From: Pseudomonas sp. SDI
Lineage (GTDB): Bacteria > Pseudomonadota > Gammaproteobacteria > Pseudomonadales > Pseudomonadaceae
Direction: 5' to 3'
DNA: 64,000 bases
Assembly: GCF_003105155.1 (NCBI RefSeq)
Contig: NZ_QETK01000006.1
Coordinates: forward strand, 62,001-126,000
Both the position numbers and the translations under genes were made by a program. A model generated the notes under the pieces. The model made no database searches, was not told where the DNA came from, and saw only the letters and a list, made by a program, of their open reading frames with translations. Below are positions 53,773 to 62,654 of this stretch, in pieces. Within the stretch, counting starts at the first letter, position 1; the number at the start of each line of letters is the position of its first letter.

Positions 53773-55101
53773 TCAGATCGGTTCGGCCCACATGTCGTAC
53801 TCGTCGGCGTCCACCACGCGGCAGCGGACCTTGTCGCCCGGCTTGAAGCCATGGTCGCCGTCGATGAATACGCTGCCGTCGATTTCCGGCGCATCGAAGA
53901 AGCTACGGCCGACCGAACCCTGTTCTTCGACTTCGTCGATCAGTACTTCGATTTCCTTGCCGATGCGCAATTGCAGGCGGGCGGTGCTGATGGCCTGCTG
54001 GTGGGCCATGAAGCGATCCCAACGTTCCTGCTTGACGTCGTCCGGCACTTCGTCCAGGCCCAGGTCGTTAGCCGGTGCGCCTTCGACCGGCGAGTACTGG
54101 AAGCAGCCGACGCGGTCGAGCTGGGCTTCGCTCAGCCAGTCGAGCAGGTATTGGAAGTCTTCCTCGGTTTCGCCCGGGAAGCCGACGATGAAGGTCGAGC
54201 GGATGACCAGTTGCGGGCACTGTTCGCGCCAGTTCTTGATCCGCGCCAGGGTGCGGTCTTCGAAGGCCGGGCGTTTCATCGACTTGAGCACTTTCGGGCT
54301 GGCGTGCTGGAACGGAATGTCCAGGTACGGCAGGATCTTGCCGGCGGCCATCAGCGGAATCACGTCGTCGACGTTCGGGTACGGGTACACGTAGTGCAGA
54401 CGCACCCAGGCGCCCAGGCTGCTCAGTGCTTCGCACAGTTCGAGCATGCGCGTCTTGACCGGGCGGCCGTTCCAGAAGTCGGTCTTGTACTTGACGTCGA
54501 CGCCATAGGCGCTGGTGTCCTGGGAAATCACCAGGATTTCCTTGACGCCGGCCTTGACCAGGCGCTCGGCCTCGCTCAGCACTTCGCCAACCGGACGGCT
54601 GACCAGCTTGCCGCGCATCGACGGGATGATGCAGAAGCTGCAGCTGTGGTTGCAGCCTTCGGAAATCTTCAGGTAGGCATAGTGGCGCGGGGTCAGCTTG
54701 ATGCCTTGTGGCGGCACCAGGTCGATCAGCGGGTTGTGATCCTGGCGCGGCGGCACGACTTCGTGCACAGCGTTGACCACTTGCTCGTACTGCTGCGGGC
54801 CGGTGACCGAGAGCACGCTCGGGTGCACGTCGCGAATGCTGCCTTCTTCGACACCCATGCAGCCGGTGACGATGACCTTGCCGTTTTCCTTGATGGCTTC
54901 GCCGATCACTTCCAGCGACTCGGCCTTGGCGCTGTCGATGAAGCCGCAGGTGTTGACCACCACCACGTCGGCGTCCTCGTAGGTAGGCACGACTTCATAG
55001 CCTTCCATGCGCAGCTGGGTCAGGATGCGCTCGGAATCGACCAGGGCTTTGGGGCACCCCAACGATATCATTCCTATACGCGGTGGTTTCTCTGTCATCA
55101 T
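53773..55101 (-). CDS. rimO: Ribosomal protein S12 methylthiotransferase RimO
   Basis: Radical-SAM enzyme that methylthiolates Asp of ribosomal protein S12. It is 442 residues. N-terminal MTTase domain ([15 protein letters not shown]), radical-SAM CxxxCxxC in [16 protein letters not shown]-terminal TRAM domain ending near the stop. It is intact although a prophage begins within 33 nt of its start codon, so its promoter may be supplied by prophage DNA. Confidence 0.96.
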
Positions 55102-55133
55102 AGGACGATCCTCATCAGGGTTTTTTCTTTCTA

Positions 55134-56753
55134 ATGGTTAAAAACGGCGCGCGAGTATACAGCTATTTGCGGTTTTCGGATCCTCGGCAGTCGACAGGTA
55201 GCAGCGCCGACCGTCAGTTGCAGTACGCGCAAAATTGGGCGGCCAGCAAGGGGCTCGTCCTAGATAGCACTTTGTCCCTGCGGGACGAAGGGCTATCCGC
55301 CTATCACGAACGACACGTCAAGCAGGGAGCCCTGGGGGTTTTCCTACAGGCGATCGAGGACGGTCGCATTGCCAGTGGTTCAGTCCTGGTCGTGGAGGGG
55401 CTGGACCGACTCAGTCGCGCGGAGCCGCTACAGGCCCAGGCCCAGTTGGCCCAGATCATCAATGCCGGCATCACGGTGGTGACGGCGAGCGATGGCCGGG
55501 AATACAACCGGGCTGGGCTGAAGTCCCAGCCCATGGACCTGGTGTATTCGCTGCTCGTCATGATTCGCGCTCATGAGGAGTCGGATACCAAGAGCAAGCG
55601 AGTGAAGGCGGCCATTCGCCGCCAGTGCGAGGGCTGGACGGCCGGGACATTCCGAGGGCTGATCCGAAATGGCAAGGACCCGCAATGGGTCCGCTGGGCT
55701 GGTGACGCCTGGGAGTTGATCCCTGAGCGAGTGGCGGCGGTTCGGCGTGCTCTGGAGTTATATAAACAGGGGATGGGAGCTGGCCGAGCTGCCAACGTCA
55801 TGCACCAGGAGGGGCATGAGCTGACTGATTGGGGAGTGTCCGGACTGCAGATTTATCGGCTGATAAAGCTGCCCGCGCTGCGGGGGGCCAAGCGGTTGAG
55901 CGTCGATGGCGAGGACTACGAGCTGGATGACTATTACCCCAGGATCCTCACCGATGTGGAGTGGGGCGAACTGCAGCACCTCGCAAGCCAGCGTCACCGC
56001 CGGCGCGGCCACGGGGAAATCCCTGGAATCGTAACCGGTGTGGGTTTGGCCTATTGCGGGTACTGCGGTACCGCCCTGGTAGCGCAGAACCTCATGAACC
56101 GGAAGCGGAAAGACGGAACGATGGCCGATGGTCACCGCCGATTGCACTGCACCTCCTACAGCAAAAACGGCGGATGTTCAGCCGGCGGTAGCTGCAGCGT
56201 CGTCCCGGTCGAGCGTGCCCTTATGAACTTCTGTTCGGATCAGTTCAATTTGCAGCGGTTGCTGCAGGATGGTGATCGTGGAAGTGGGCTGCATCACCAG
56301 GTGATCGCGGCCCGGGCAGAGGTCGATAAACTTACTGGCCAGCTTGCCAAGGTGACCGATGCCCTCCTTGCGGACGACAGCGGGGCGGCGCCCTTGGCGT
56401 TCGTCCGCAAGGCACGAGAGCTTGAGCAGCGGCAGAATGAAGCCGAACACAGGCTGAAGGACCTGGAGTACCAAGTAGCGGCGCTTTCCAGCGTTGCCCG
56501 TCCTGCTCACGCTGAGCGCTGGAGTGAGCTTGCGGCTGAGGTCGAGGCAGGCGACTTTAATGCCCGGGAGCAGGTACGTCAGCTTGTCCTGGACACGTTC
56601 GAGCGGATCGTCATCTACATGCGGGGGGTGGGCGCGTCCGACCGCTCCAGTCGCACGATCGATGTTCAGCTACTCTCGCGTACCGGCCAGCATCGATTGC
56701 TGAAGATCGATCGGCGGAGTGGGGCATGGGTAGCGAGCGAGGACTGGAGTTAG
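55134..56753 (+). CDS. Large serine recombinase (phage integrase)
   Basis: 539 residues. The N-terminal resolvase domain has [20 protein letters not shown] with catalytic S15 in RFS, and [12 protein letters not shown] with the conserved Asp-Arg. A recombinase domain (about 165-290, [15 protein letters not shown]) and a zinc ribbon (CGYCG ... [11 protein letters not shown]) follow, then a coiled coil (about 395-455, [10 protein letters not shown]-like). This is the layout of phiC31-type integrases that act without supercoiling. It points away from rimO, next to the presumed attL. Confidence 0.93.
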
Positions 56754-57079: not shown

Positions 57080-57142
57080 ATTACTTCCGGTTAATTTTAT
57101 GTTACTCGCGGTATTGCTTGTTATGATTACCTGCGGTTAATC
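57080..57142 (+). promoter_or_regulatory. Left operator cluster and promoter of the prophage (OL/PL-like)
   Basis: Three copies of a 16-bp motif: ATTACTTCCGGTTAAT (57080-57095), GTTACTCGCGGTATTG (57101-57116) and ATTACCTGCGGTTAAT (57126-57141). A promoter TTGCTT (57114-57119), 17-nt spacer, TTAATC (57137-57142) lies across the last two. The same motif pair with the same 25-bp spacing occurs upstream of cro. It would drive the unknown genes at 57202-58661. Confidence 0.75.
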
Positions 57143-57201: not shown

Positions 57202-57777
57202 ATGCAAACCCTTCCACTACAACATCACCTGTCGCTAGCCAGCAGTCGCGCGCTGGCCCACCAAGTCGTACTAAATGGCACCTTCGATCACGATCTCATT
57301 GACGGCGTTACAGGGGCTGTCTGCGGCCTAGTCCGGGTCGTTGTTGAACAGTGCCAGAAGGGGCTAATTGCGCGGGTCGAGTTGAGCGGTTCCGTCAACA
57401 CAATCACATTTGCCAGACGACCAGATAACAGCATGCGCCTCACCAGGTTTATCGAGTCGCTGGCGAATGGTGTCGACCTCCCAATTGACCTTCCTGAGGT
57501 GGACGAGTTTTTGCTTGTGAGCGAGTTGGAGTCGATGCTGCGTTGTGCTGTCCGTGAGCGTCGGGGTACCTACTACCTGCCTGTTGACGGAGTCGAAGGT
57601 CTGGCACTGTTACTTCGGCAGAGCGCTTGTGACCCCAAACGCGCAGCGTTTCGATTCGAGCTGGCGGGGGGCGGCTTAACCATGCCAGTGTTGCTTCCGA
57701 GCGATCGCACCCTGGCCTACGAACTTTTGAACGGCTGCGTTCAAGAGTTTGTCGCCAATTACCGCACTGCGGCTTGA
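57202..57777 (+). CDS. Prophage protein of unknown function
   Basis: 191 residues, not recognised. No signal peptide, membrane segment or known motif. The mixed alpha/beta composition includes TFDHDLIDGVTGAVCGLVRV and MPVLLPSDRTLAYELLNGC. It is the first gene after the CI-type operator cluster, so it is predicted to be repressed in the lysogen and early in induction. GGAG-like site in CTATTTCGGAGATC supports ATG 57202. Confidence 0.7.
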   Translation: MQTLPLQHHLSLASSRALAHQVVLNGTFDHDLIDGVTGAVCGLVRVVVEQCQKGLIARVELSGSVNTITFARRPDNSMRLTRFIESLANGVDLPIDLPEVDEFLLVSELESMLRCAVRERRGTYYLPVDGVEGLALLLRQSACDPKRAAFRFELAGGGLTMPVLLPSDRTLAYELLNGCVQEFVANYRTAA

Positions 57778-57787
57778 GGGAGTGGGT

Positions 57788-58009
57788 ATGACTATTCAAA
57801 TCGTGCTACCCGGTAAAGTCCAAGTGCAATTGGAAACAGCCATTCGTCACTACCGCAATGCTGCTGCCGCGCTGGGTGAGGCCGTCCAGTCTGAAGCTTG
57901 GGACAGGATCTATGCTCTTCAGAGTAATCGGGATCTGCAAGCTCACACCATCGCCTTGATCGTCAACGGTACGCCTATCAGCTTTGTCGCAGAAGGGGGG
58001 CAGGCATGA
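57788..58009 (+). CDS. Small prophage protein of unknown function
   Basis: 73 residues from ATG 57788 (GGGAGTGGGT upstream). It contains LETAIRHYRNAAAALGEAV and IALIVNGTPISFVAEG; not recognised. 10 nt after the previous gene, 4-nt overlap with the next. Confidence 0.65.
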   Translation: MTIQIVLPGKVQVQLETAIRHYRNAAAALGEAVQSEAWDRIYALQSNRDLQAHTIALIVNGTPISFVAEGGQA

Positions 58010-58296
58010 TTGGTATCCCGAAAACTGGTGCGCTTGAACACGGCTGCATCAGTGCCAACGTTTCTACTGGCTATCGCTTCACAACCGCAGATGGTCGACC
58101 TGCGCGTCTGGCTATCATCGATGATCAGGGCAACGTGGTCGAGGCCGGGGAGGCTGTTGCACAAGAAGCCTGGAACGTCTGCATTGCTGTCATCAAGAAT
58201 TTCAAGATCGGACAGGGCCACATCATCGTGCACAGCTCCCCTCCCGGGATCGAGAGCTCCGGGGCTTCAAGCCGCAAGCGCAAGGCTGCGCGATGA
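58006..58296 (+). CDS. Small prophage protein of unknown function
   Basis: 96 residues. Residues 17-75 look like a beta-rich fold (TGYRFTTADGRPARLAIIDD, IAVIKNFKIGQGHIIV), and the tail is basic (SSRKRKAAR), which could bind nucleic acid. ATGA-type overlaps on both sides show translational coupling. Confidence 0.65.
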   Translation: MIGIPKTGALEHGCISANVSTGYRFTTADGRPARLAIIDDQGNVVEAGEAVAQEAWNVCIAVIKNFKIGQGHIIVHSSPPGIESSGASSRKRKAAR

Positions 58297-58661
58297 GCAT
58301 CGAATCTGACGAAATGGTTACTCTACCACGTGCTTGGTTGGCTGCTTACCTTGAGAATGATGGAGGCTCGGTTGAGGTAAATGGCGAGCGGACTTCTCTT
58401 TGGGAGTTGCTTAGCAACGCAGTCGCCGAGCCACCCCGAGGGCATGTAGAAGAGTCGGAAGTCGTAGACTTTGATATAGTACGTCTGAGTGCCGATCGCT
58501 ATGATTGGCTCCGTCTACATGCCGTTCGCATCCAAGGAAGCCAAATCTGGTACCAAGGCGAAGCTCTAGATATCCGCGTCGATATAGGTCGGGAACATAT
58601 GGCCGAGAAGGCCAAGCCCATTCGGGAGAGCGAGCTGCTGCTCAGTCGTGAAGCTGATTAA
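58293..58661 (+). CDS. Prophage protein of unknown function
   Basis: 122 residues, acidic. It contains RAWLAAYLENDGGSVEVNGE and LRLHAVRIQGSQIWYQGEAL. Not recognised. Last gene of the PL-type operon; a strong hairpin follows. Confidence 0.65.
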   Translation: MSIESDEMVTLPRAWLAAYLENDGGSVEVNGERTSLWELLSNAVAEPPRGHVEESEVVDFDIVRLSADRYDWLRLHAVRIQGSQIWYQGEALDIRVDIGREHMAEKAKPIRESELLLSREAD

Positions 58662-58665
58662 AAGC

Positions 58666-58694
58666 TTCCGGACAGCGGAGGCCGCTGTCCGGAA
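58666..58694. terminator. Bidirectional hairpin between convergent prophage operons
   Basis: 13-base perfect stem TTCCGGACAGCGG / CCGCTGTCCGGAA with AGG loop, between the PL-type operon and the BRCT gene. The flanking T/A tracts are short. Confidence 0.7.
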
Positions 58695-58712
58695 AGCAGA
58701 CCGATGTAATCT

Positions 58713-59351
58713 CTACCCCAGCAGTACTCGCTGCCAGTAATCTTCCCCGATTATCGCAATGGGTGTTCCTTGCTCGCGCAACTCGACGGCTCGCAAGATC
58801 TTGGTGCCGTAACTGCTGTGCAGCCATTGCTCATTGCCAATGCTGCCGACTACCAGGTAGTGCACTTTCTTGCTTACACCCGAGCCGATATCAGCCCCGC
58901 GCTCTTTCACCAAGCGCTCGCATTCACGACGAGGGCCAAAGGCCATTGTTCCAGTGAAGACGAACATACGACCTTCACAGACGATCTCTGGCTCTGGTCG
59001 ATTAAGTGGCAGGGGGTTGGGGCTGCTGTAGGCAGTGGCTGATGCGGTTGTGCCCGTGATGCCAGCGAATCCGCGCAGCGTATCAAGCAGCTCCGCAGAC
59101 TCTTCGGCATCCAGTACTCCGTCCTGCAGCATCATATTGATACGTTGATACAGTAAGTTGATCACCGGGTCATCCAGGTGAGCCAGTTGTGTATCGATCC
59201 ACTGGCGCAGGAAACGCGCTTCATCGATGGTCACGACACCATCAGCTGCGATGCCTGCGGCCAAGCCGGCTAATACGTCAGCTCCTCTGCGGTCCATGCG
59301 GGCAGCATGGAAGAAGCGGCTATTTTCAAACTCTTTGTGCAGATCGGTCAT
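58713..59351 (-). CDS. TerB-like/BRCT two-domain protein downstream of cI
   Basis: 212 residues from 59351 (an ATG at 59366 is also possible). The N-terminal part has two helical segments like those of TerB/DUF-type folds (LAAGIAADGVVTIDEARFL and LLYQRINMMLQDGVLDAEES). The C-terminal ~85 residues are a ligase-type BRCT domain: MFVFTGTMAFGPRRECERLV, GVSKKVHYLVVG, GTKILRAVELREQGTPI. No ligase or nuclease core is attached. It lies just after cI on the same strand, so it is probably expressed in the lysogen. Confidence 0.85.
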   Translation of the reverse strand: MTDLHKEFENSRFFHAARMDRRGADVLAGLAAGIAADGVVTIDEARFLRQWIDTQLAHLDDPVINLLYQRINMMLQDGVLDAEESAELLDTLRGFAGITGTTASATAYSSPNPLPLNRPEPEIVCEGRMFVFTGTMAFGPRRECERLVKERGADIGSGVSKKVHYLVVGSIGNEQWLHSSYGTKILRAVELREQGTPIAIIGEDYWQRVLLG

Positions 59352-59380: not shown

Positions 59381-60100
59381 TCAGAGCCCAGTGATCTTGG
59401 CGTCGATCACTCGGCCGATAATCTCCCAAGTGTCGTCTAGGACGACGGTTTGATAGTCGGAGTTCAGCGGAACCAAGTAGCCGACTCCGGCGTCCTGAAC
59501 ATACTGCTTGAAGGTCGATTCGCCGGTGTTGGTATCCAGTGCGATGTAGAACTTGCCGCTGACCAGCTCGAAGCCTTCAGGGCGGACTAGAATCGGGGTG
59601 CCTGGCGGAAAACTTGGAGGTGTGTCAGAGGTCATCGACTTACCTCTCACTTCCAGCCAGTAGCCGTTGGGACCAGCGTTTTCGGTGCTACCCAGCCATT
59701 CCTCTGCGACACCGGTGGGGTGAGACATTGAAGACTCAATGCGGTCCCCTGCAACAACCCAAGTCAGCAGCGGGTACTCCTTCGTCTCCCTGTGCGGTTG
59801 GGGCATCGACGCAACATTAGATGGGTCGGTCGTAGCCACCATGCCAGAGATCTCTGCAGCGAGACGTGGGCTAAAAGCATCTACAGGTTCGTCCAGCAGG
59901 CGTGCGAGGGCCGCAGCAAAGCGCACATTCAGGGCATTTTTGCCGCTGAAGTAGTGTGCAACTGCTGCTGGGGATACACCAATTTCGTCGGCAATTTTCT
60001 TCTGGCTCAACCCAAGCGCATTTTTCTTCAGCAAGAAGAGGTCATGGGCTGCCTGGCATTCAGCGAGCAAGTCGGGTGGGAGGAGCTTTTTCTTCGTCAT
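59381..60100 (-). CDS. CI-type prophage repressor with LexA-like self-cleavage domain
   Basis: 239 residues. The N-terminal HTH (about 28-60; LSQKKIADEIGVSPAAVAHYF) is followed by an S24 peptidase domain with predicted cleavage at A117-G118 (VVAGDR), nucleophile S155 (RGKSM) and base K198 (STFKQY). Divergent from the Cro-like gene over 105 nt holding operators. It should keep the prophage silent and be lost after RecA activation. Confidence 0.93.
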   Translation of the reverse strand: MTKKKLLPPDLLAECQAAHDLFLLKKNALGLSQKKIADEIGVSPAAVAHYFSGKNALNVRFAAALARLLDEPVDAFSPRLAAEISGMVATTDPSNVASMPQPHRETKEYPLLTWVVAGDRIESSMSHPTGVAEEWLGSTENAGPNGYWLEVRGKSMTSDTPPSFPPGTPILVRPEGFELVSGKFYIALDTNTGESTFKQYVQDAGVGYLVPLNSDYQTVVLDDTWEIIGRVIDAKITGL

Positions 60101-60109
60101 GAGCGAACT

Positions 60110-60177
60110 ATAAACCGTTAGTTAATCAAGGGTGATTTACCTGCGGTATTGATATGTGTGATTACTTGCGGTTAATA
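60110..60177 (+). promoter_or_regulatory. Right operator cluster and cro promoter (OR/PR-like)
   Basis: TTTACCTGCGGTATTG (60136-60151) and ATTACTTGCGGTTAAT (60161-60176), 25 bp apart, plus a weaker inverted copy ATAAACCGTTAGTTAAT (60110-60126) near the cI start. Promoter TTGATA (60149-60154), 17-nt spacer, TTAATA (60172-60177). Geometry matches the left cluster at 57101-57142. Confidence 0.8.
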
Positions 60178-60205: not shown

Positions 60206-60442
60206 ATGAATTCCATCCCATTACCAGATCTGGTTGCTCAGAAAGGGCAAGCTGCGGTTGCTGAGGCATTTGGCGTAAGCCCCGCAGCTATTCATAAGGC
60301 GGTGCGGTCTGGACGAAAGATCGTCGTCACGATTCATGAAGACGGAACGTATACCGGGGAGGAAACCCGTGCGTTCCCTTGTCATGACAGCCCTCGGTCG
60401 CCTCAGGGGCCTGGGCAGGTTAAGACGCCGAGCCCCCTATGA
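60206..60442 (+). CDS. Cro-like repressor
   Basis: 78 residues from ATG 60206 (CCGGAGGTG upstream). The first ~45 residues IPLPDLVAQKGQAAVAEAFGVSPAAIHKAVRSGR form a Cro-type HTH. Divergent from cI. Its stop overlaps the next start (ATGA). Confidence 0.85.
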   Translation: MNSIPLPDLVAQKGQAAVAEAFGVSPAAIHKAVRSGRKIVVTIHEDGTYTGEETRAFPCHDSPRSPQGPGQVKTPSPL

Positions 60443-61074
60443 ACACGTCCAATCCTCGACACCACCTGGTTTCCCGCGACCAGGTACTGGTGGCGCACGC
60501 CGCCGACATGATCGCTCGCACGGGGTTTAGCCAAGACCATTTCGCCCAGGCGCTCAGCGAGCACCTGCACGGGCTGGTGCCCGCTAAGGCGATCGCCAAG
60601 GATGTGCCCGACTTCCAAATAATTGCCCAGGGCAACGACTCCGAGGCCTTCCTGAAGGCTTCCGGCGCGTGGTTGCGCCGCGTCGGGCGGTGGTTGAGCG
60701 GTGAGGTCGACCTGCCCAGTTGGATCGAGGAGGCCTGGGTGGAGGCGTTGGAAGACGACTTCCAGGAACGTTGCATCAACGAGCTGGCCAGCCGTCATGG
60801 CCTGTCTGGTGCTCGAGCACTGGCGGGTGATGCCAACCCTGTCGGCGTGTTTGGCCAACTGGTGGCTCGCATGGGCCGCACTGTTACGCTGGGCAGTGAA
60901 ATCCTGGAGGACGGTCGGATCGACGCCGGTGATCTGGAGAAGCTTCCAGAGTTCGTTGAGAGCTTGCGTTCTGCAGAAGCACGCTGCAGTGAGCTTCGCA
61001 CGCGGGCCGAGGAGATCATGCGCACGCAACCGCGGTTGAAGGCGGTAGGTGACCAGGTGACGCCTGGCCTGTGA
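60439..61074 (+). CDS. Prophage protein of unknown function between cro and rep
   Basis: 211 residues, mostly helical, acidic in the middle (LPSWIEEAWVEALEDDFQE) with FLKASGAWLRRVGRWLSGEV. It occupies the place of a CII-like activator, and family resemblance to phage CII/toxin-regulator proteins is possible but not established. Coupled to both neighbours (ATGA and GTGA overlaps). Confidence 0.7.
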   Translation: MNTSNPRHHLVSRDQVLVAHAADMIARTGFSQDHFAQALSEHLHGLVPAKAIAKDVPDFQIIAQGNDSEAFLKASGAWLRRVGRWLSGEVDLPSWIEEAWVEALEDDFQERCINELASRHGLSGARALAGDANPVGVFGQLVARMGRTVTLGSEILEDGRIDAGDLEKLPEFVESLRSAEARCSELRTRAEEIMRTQPRLKAVGDQVTPGL

Positions 61075-61973: not shown

Positions 61974-62654
61974 CACCCTCTTATCGCAGCTACCTGCGAG
62001 GCCAGCCTCTGCCTGGTCCCTCAAATCCCCACGTAATTCCCCTGCTCGCCATGGCTACTCAGTGGCCACTATCGGCGTGCGCACCCATTTTTCTCCTGCT
62101 GCGCCCTATGTTGCCGGCGGCCCACCCGGGGCGCCGGCAGGCTGTTGTATTAAATGGAATTTTATCCCCCCATCAGTACCCCCAGAGGGTTAAAAAAAGA
62201 GCCTTTCGTGGTGTTTGGTCTGTCGCAAGTAGGGAACATGATGATGCCTTCGCCCAAGGGCTCAGCTCGCTGCGCTCGGCTCTTTACCATCGTGGGCTGC
62301 TAGCCCACACCCAGGCAGGGCAAGTGCCCTGCACCCAAGCCGCCACGCCTGCACGATGTGCCGGCGTGCCATTAGATCAAGAGCAGGTAATCAGGCGCGG
62401 CCGGTGACGATGTTGCTTGGGCGATTGGCGCACGCGGGCGGGCTGGAGCGGGGCTGCTCGTCCTGCAGGGCACGGCATTGGCGAGAGATCGGCCGCTTCG
62501 CGGGTATCGCCGCGCCGAAATTACGGATCTCACCGGCAACCGTGCAGGCGGCTATCATGCCTGCGTTGCAGGCATCCGGCGGCGCGTTGGAGGTTTGGGA
62601 GGGAAGTGCCCGCTGGGGGCACTTGAGGACGGCGGGATCGAGGAGGGGAGGGGA
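61974..62654. other. 681-nt non-coding stretch after rep: candidate replication origin
   Basis: No supported gene. It has an AT-rich patch (about 62146-62215 with GGGTTAAAAAAAGAGCC) and two neighbouring hairpins, GTGGGCT...AGCCCAC (62292-62308) and GCAGGGCA...TGCCCTGC (62315-62332). IncFII-type RepA acts in cis on an origin downstream of repA, which is this place. Several short frames here look like chance. Confidence 0.45.

Follow-up and report, generated by a model that had tools for sequence, protein, structure and literature searches.

The stretch of DNA analysed here (the window) comprises 64,000 nucleotides of the genome of Pseudomonas sp. SDI. Its minus strand carries, at 58713..59351, a gene for a 212-aa protein in which a helical, questionably TerB-like N-terminal part precedes a BRCT domain, and which was identified as a member of the PHROG 3989 family from its open reading frame, Pfam, PHROG and PDB matches, an AlphaFold model and fold matches. 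The gene starts 29 bp past the stop codon of a cI-type repressor gene on the same strand (59381..60100, 239 aa), whose product contains HTH_3 (Pfam E 9e-11) and Peptidase_S24 (E 2e-17) domains and matches a PHROG transcriptional repressor family (E 2e-36). This is the position of a cI-linked accessory gene, and the first-pass annotation was correct in placing the BRCT gene directly after cI and in the same orientation. Divergent to cI, on the plus strand, are the genes for Cro (60206..60442; Pfam Cro E 4e-18) and a CII-like activator (60439..61074; PHROG 4834 E 7e-33). The prophage serine integrase is encoded on the plus strand at 55134..56753 (Pfam Resolvase E 2e-12; PHROG integrase E 4e-64), and the gene adjoining its start (53773-55134), which by its sequence looks to us like rimO, marks a possible attachment site.

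On its 3' side the BRCT gene is bounded by a terminator-like hairpin of 14 pairs (58665..58695), located by a hairpin scan and folding, which faces the end of a convergent operon and forms the boundary between the BRCT gene and that set of small genes. The hairpin has a folding energy of -29.4 kcal/mol (z -5.6) and a short T run; three terminator-like sites were found against 1.8 expected in shuffled sequences. Because the intergenic gap measures 29 bp and the hairpin stands at the end of the BRCT gene, cI and the BRCT gene are likely to be cotranscribed, as predicted from gene order; a promoter scan found none above chance for cI.

The convergent cargo consists of four small genes on the plus strand (57202-58661), which gave no notable Pfam match and no PADLOC match at E <= 1; the first of them has one weak match to a PHROG family of unknown function. 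An element resembling ATTACCTGCGGTTAAT is present twice upstream of this cargo (57080-57095 and 57126-57141) and again, as an operator-like element detected by repeat and pattern search, on the plus strand in the interval between cI and cro (60161..60176). Allowing up to three mismatches, the ATTACCTGCGGTTAAT-like pattern, which was derived from these same repeats, has four matches where 0.15 are expected, the fourth of which, at 62376, is probably due to chance. The shared elements suggest that the phage repressor controls the cargo operon too.

The BRCT domain (residues 122-212; 58716..58988, minus strand) was defined by Pfam, fold match and invariance. The domain proposed in the first-pass annotation is recovered by a profile search, in which residues 121-179 match Pfam PF00533 (E 3e-5) with 24.6 bits, above the curated cut-off of 21.3. 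A search of PDB sequences retrieved the BRCT domains of human RFC1 (E 6e-5) and Thermus LigA (E 6e-4). The AlphaFold model of the whole protein, based on an alignment of 32 sequences, has a mean pLDDT of 75.9 and a pTM of 0.49, with values of 61-95 in the BRCT blocks. Foldseek returned five PDB matches at E <= 0.001, every one a LigA or RFC1 chain. In VIA-align, residues 123-212 were superposed on the LigA BRCT domain of an integrative model (Z 10.4, rmsd 1.7, 76 aligned) and on those of yeast RFC1 (Z 9.3), S. pombe Rad4 (Z 9.1) and human RFC1 (Z 8.3), Z values within 1 of each other counting as ties. Neither a ligase catalytic domain nor any other domain besides BRCT appeared in the Pfam scan of the protein. 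Pfam, PDB sequence and fold searches agree on the BRCT domain claimed from the letters, and, as claimed, there is no ligase core. An identity as NAD-dependent DNA ligase was rejected, as there is no adenylation or ligase core and the NCBIfam LigA model scores 29 bits against a cut-off of 369. The anti-phage protein GapS2 was likewise rejected (14 bits, E 0.043, against an NCBIfam cut-off of 330 bits).

Alignment of 79 unique relatives (73 clusters at 95%), from which 12 repeat fetches of identical genome copies with other ends had been removed, revealed 13 invariant columns. Among those found in 79/79 sequences are T133, G134, R141, G169, W176, G182 and K184 of the BRCT part. The last three fall within the peptide patterns by which the viral loci were retrieved, and their invariance there is therefore partly selected; the copies from Pseudomonas genomes, which were found without those patterns, are free of this effect. 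T133 and R141 align with positions 415 and 423 of RFC1 in both the PDB sequence and the fold alignments, and K184 was assigned by secondary structure, the HMMER alignment pairing it with a different RFC1 lysine. We take the equivalents of T133 and R141, the next glycine and a lysine at the start of helix 2 to be the 5'-phosphate pocket of BRCT domains. Judged from the aligned sequences, this pocket (T133, G134, R141 and K184) is apparently intact in PHROG 3989 proteins. Of the two ligands considered in the first-pass annotation, the invariance of the pocket, together with the likeness to RFC1 and LigA, would favour DNA ends over phosphopeptides. The RFC1 BRCT domain in isolation is reported to prefer 5'-phosphorylated DNA, which it binds in a groove, and the docked RFC complex is reported to contact DNA through another face.

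The helical N-terminal part (residues 20-96; 59064..59294, minus strand) was delimited by the AlphaFold model and conservation. The model contains helices at residues 12-35, 42-55, 62-74 and 82-96, which pair into two helix-loop-helix units, each with a copy of the D-x6-E loop (D37/E44 and D77/E84). E44, D77 and E84 are present in 79/79 and D37 in 78/79 unique sequences. The first-pass annotation described this half as TerB-like and proposed structure prediction of both domains; prediction yielded the BRCT fold in one and, in the other, four helices and two D-x6-E loops, but no significant match to TerB in sequence or for the N-domain model. Pfam TerB does not match the N-domain of the window protein, and its matches to 4/29 N-domains of the family reach E 0.049 at best. 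In a profile-profile comparison with 22 real TerB proteins, 26 columns were aligned with a probability of 47%, against 0.1-0.5% for three controls. A fold search with the N-domain model gave nothing at E <= 0.001, and no TerB entry was among the 50 matches listed. Membership of the TerB family by sequence was rejected on the Pfam result, and a relation to it is weakly hinted at by the D-x6-E loops only.

The assignment to PHROG 3989, a widespread family of unknown function, is based on a match of residues 1-211 to positions 86-293 of the 296-position profile (E 4e-70). The eight relatives submitted to PHROGs, which include those of Vibrio phage K139 and of a Hymenobacter plasmid, all matched the same family. 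The view that BRCT domains outside ligase are rare in prophages did not survive the survey, since a profile-guided scan found 237 viral stretches encoding relatives of the window BRCT protein, of which 80 were kept. Searches by tblastn retrieved 18 phage records, in which some phages are represented by two entries, and seven plasmid records, one of which covers most of the query. A BRCT match is present in 57/298 Pseudomonas genomes, including that of the window, and in 12/398 genomes across the phylum. A close-pattern search for PHROG 3989 in genome contigs yielded two distant loci only (L001 and L002), which were left out of the counts; the query from Sulfurimonas phage SNW-1 (L012) retrieved no viral relatives, and no relative of the L132 protein was found in E. 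coli genomes. Loci L012, L013 and L017 were used for the conservation analysis and the tally of phage records only. A review credits most bacteria with no more than one or two BRCT proteins (PMC10386641).

Despite the missing ligase core, members of the family are annotated as NAD-dependent DNA ligase in BK061587, ON857940, KT887557, OQ504958 and AB374228; a large phage family called DNA ligase in many records is thus no ligase. In the pairs compared, dN/dS is 0.03-0.11 where it could be computed, 6/15 pairs being saturated. For the window gene itself it is 0.06-0.11 in three of five pairs, in which dS exceeds 1, and the other two pairs are saturated.

Twelve of the 18 phage records were opened, and nine of them (FBPa47, Marin, phPA-G, phi1, U7, PG1, K139, Kappa and VPUSM 8) have a co-oriented repressor gene upstream, either adjacent or one small gene away. 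In D14L, Lodos and one P. aeruginosa plasmid record the order is integrase, BamE-like gene and BRCT gene. In SNW-1 (L012:3884-4507) the BRCT gene stands at the repressor position, divergent from CII, and no repressor is annotated beside it. When viral relatives were clustered at 95% identity, a co-oriented repressor-like gene was found no more than 1.3 kb upstream of the BRCT gene in 27/29 clusters. In 22/29 this is an S24 repressor recognised by Pfam, lying within 40 bp in ten clusters, at about 320 bp in one, and separated from the BRCT gene in eleven by a small gene, here called A4. Five clusters have an HTH protein farther upstream and no S24 domain, as judged from the sequences by eye, and L028 and L092 have neither an S24 nor an HTH repressor upstream. 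The A4 gene, of about 130-190 codons as called, lies directly upstream of or overlaps the BRCT gene in these eleven clusters (for example at L083:4604-5050) and belongs to an uncharacterised family that frequently accompanies BRCT and is also frequently found by itself at one chromosomal site; the A4 proteins tried had no Pfam or PHROG match at E <0.2. The repressors are 16-73% identical to that of the window, versus 56-84% among the Pseudomonas-type BRCT proteins. As the repressors are far more diverse than the BRCT proteins, the sequences indicate that the BRCT gene probably became associated, or stayed associated, with several of them.

Besides that of the window, the Pseudomonas genomes yielded 45 full-length copies, of which the best 40 served as the sample of chromosomal copies. 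A repressor was detected within 1.4 kb upstream in at least 4/40; the two local repressor profiles used are narrow, so the true number may be higher. The survey of homologues next to cI suggested in the first-pass annotation thus bears out the association in 27/29 viral clusters, but among the Pseudomonas copies only in these. The proposition that the gene is always found behind cI was tested and rejected, this setting being one of several. In 14/40 copies a shared gene for a 608-aa protein (cluster c1) lies upstream, in most cases accompanied by A4 and common downstream genes (c0). Divergence of the BRCT and c1 genes is correlated among these 14 fixed-site copies (Mantel r 0.67, with 5/2000 permutations as high), which fits vertical inheritance at one site. 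Chromosomal copies without a detected cI have dN/dS values of 0.03-0.06 in those 6/10 pairs that were not saturated. This purifying selection, together with the co-divergence with a neighbouring gene, argues for use by the host. No defence setting is apparent in the neighbourhood of the 14 fixed-site copies.

Half of the sample (20/40 copies) has neither A4 nor a detected cI, and cluster c4 is nearby in 9/40. A repressor-like fragment was recognised by eye upstream of the copy at L204 (at least 1/20), so that some of the 20 copies appear to be prophage remnants. At these 20 loci, 92 of 134 neighbour proteins were scanned with Pfam and PADLOC, with 25 of 105 PADLOC families listed. Genes for AbiD were located within about 2.5 kb in 3/20 copies. 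AbiD occurs at 76 places in the 298 genomes; a rough manual calculation puts the number expected by chance within 5 kb of the 45 full-length copies at about 0.02, against three seen, and these three share one hotspot and were picked out after the scan. At L199 a reverse transcriptase gene is next to the BRCT copy (1/20 located), and at least two neighbour proteins match defence reverse transcriptases among the PADLOC matches listed.

The closest described counterpart of the window gene is orf2 of phages K139 and Kappa, annotated as 'BRCT domain-containing' or 'NAD-dependent DNA ligase', which belongs to PHROG 3989 (K139 Orf2, E 6e-135) and occupies the slot behind cI. K139 Orf2 differs from the window protein in its length of 301 aa and an additional pair of N-terminal acidic helical motifs, and the two are about 32% identical over residues 65-212. 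The K139 operon, annotated as lysogenic, runs on into glo and int (cI-orf2-glo-int), whereas in the window a hairpin follows the BRCT gene. Exclusion is assigned to Glo only in the K139 record and is credited to Glo in a paper on the phage; the VPUSM 8 record describes orf2 as 'involved in phage exclusion', which is a single depositor's note. RFC1 and LigA share with the window protein the BRCT fold and the TG...R...K positions but include an AAA+ or ligase part, unlike the free-standing window domain with its helical companion. The lambda rexAB, 434 hex and Salmonella bstA genes resemble the window gene in their position behind cI and in expression in the lysogen, which for the window gene is expected from its position; we know of no relation between their proteins and the BRCT protein. 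The slot behind cI is reported to carry BstA and the Rex/Hex exclusion genes (PMC8585504, PMC3564112), and bstA, located behind cI, to be highly expressed in lysogens (PMC8585504). Both the family of the window gene, itself uncharacterised, and the kind of slot that the gene occupies are already known. What appears to be new, as we have not seen it stated, is the joint picture of pocket conservation, the A4 partner and the fixed-site chromosomal copies.

We tentatively favour, at somewhat less than even probability, the interpretation that the protein is expressed in the lysogen and senses 5'-phosphorylated DNA ends or nicks, its target being most likely incoming phage DNA. This reading builds on the observed fold, gene order, pocket conservation, selection and chromosomal retention, and adds cotranscription and expression, binding of DNA ends and exclusion as predictions. 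The BRCT gene would follow cI as the second member of a lysogeny unit, and the single RFC1/LigA-type BRCT domain of its product would hold a 5'-phosphorylated end or nick, with the acidic-loop helical part relaying the signal or binding a partner. In the lysogen the protein would act on incoming phage DNA, at free ends or replication intermediates, with exclusion of the phage or shielding of the cell as the outcome. A role in exclusion is proposed because other genes in the slot behind cI have one; our literature search found no DNA-binding or phage assay of the PHROG 3989 family. If DNA-end sensing is correct, phage repressors would share their expression unit with a simple sensor of DNA damage or foreign DNA; a benefit to the host is suggested by the chromosomal copies. 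That PHROG 3989 as a whole consists of stand-alone BRCT proteins that sense 5'-phosphorylated DNA ends or nicks, serve in phage exclusion behind cI and have repeatedly been domesticated in bacterial chromosomes, as a bacterial counterpart of the eukaryotic BRCT damage adaptors in immunity, is a more doubtful extension.

The association with lysogeny genes could also mean that the BRCT protein tunes prophage stability in the manner of Hex, sensing DNA damage and delaying or promoting cI cleavage or excision. The repressors linked to it in 22/29 viral clusters are of the S24, SOS-cleavable kind, and the BRCT gene of SNW-1 takes the repressor's place opposite CII. A precedent is 434 Hex, which is reported to be cotranscribed with cI, to exclude P22 and to block RecA-stimulated autocleavage of the repressor (PMC3564112). 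In Roseobacter prophages, according to a 2026 preprint, quorum-sensing modules of the lysis-lysogeny switch are swapped for cI or BRCT modules, and a DNA-damage role is put forward as a suggestion (PMC13345283); the BRCT genes concerned may or may not belong to PHROG 3989. Yet as many as 36/40 chromosomal copies, as seen with the narrow profiles, have no detected repressor and are nevertheless conserved, and the repressors of five viral clusters are of the HTH-only type without S24. We consider this explanation rather unlikely; were induction tuning the only function, the gene would provide a second damage input into the lysogeny switch. A role as a helper in DNA repair or replication, guarding nicks and ends or recruiting enzymes such as host LigA or an exonuclease for circularisation, integration or repair of the lysogen genome, would agree with the LigA-like BRCT domain, with the vertical-looking chromosomal copies and with the existence of related BRCT domains appended to DnaQ-type exonucleases (PRK06195, E 7e-10) or, in PADLOC PDC-S48, placed with RNase_T. 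However, presence in a minority of genomes, within the genus as well as the phylum, is not that of a core repair factor, and expression is expected from the lysogeny operon rather than an early lytic one, so we regard such a role as unlikely.

The frequent pairing with A4, which is directly upstream of the BRCT gene in 18/40 Pseudomonas copies as well as in the viral clusters mentioned above, raises the alternative that the BRCT gene is half of a two-gene unit, with A4 as the main actor or regulator and the lone BRCT gene of the window as a reduced version. A4 was found in 105/298 Pseudomonas genomes, adjoining the BRCT gene in 24, apart from it in 15 and without a BRCT match in 66. Neither gene therefore needs the other, A4 as an obligate partner was rejected, and no A4 is present in the window's own genome, which makes this alternative very improbable compared with sensing of DNA ends by the BRCT protein itself. 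Among 20 loci with A4 and without BRCT, many retain the c3-c1-A4-c5/c0 surroundings.

On the Hymenobacter plasmid (L017:1-5571) the BRCT relative is encoded downstream of genes for a TerB-C-domain protein, an ATP-binding protein and a DEAD/DEAH helicase, in an arrangement resembling a defence operon. PADLOC PDC-S48 resembles the window protein in its C-terminal stretch, part helical and part BRCT (E 2e-9), and differs in its N-terminal RNase_T exonuclease; membership of the window protein in PDC-S48 was rejected, as the match covers only profile positions 278-375 of 411 and the exonuclease is absent. Near full-length PDC-S48 proteins are encoded at L150:1489-2670 and L151:1495-2718, where an RNase_T exonuclease is followed by weak TerB and BRCT matches, and the helical-plus-BRCT arrangement may thus recur behind a nuclease.
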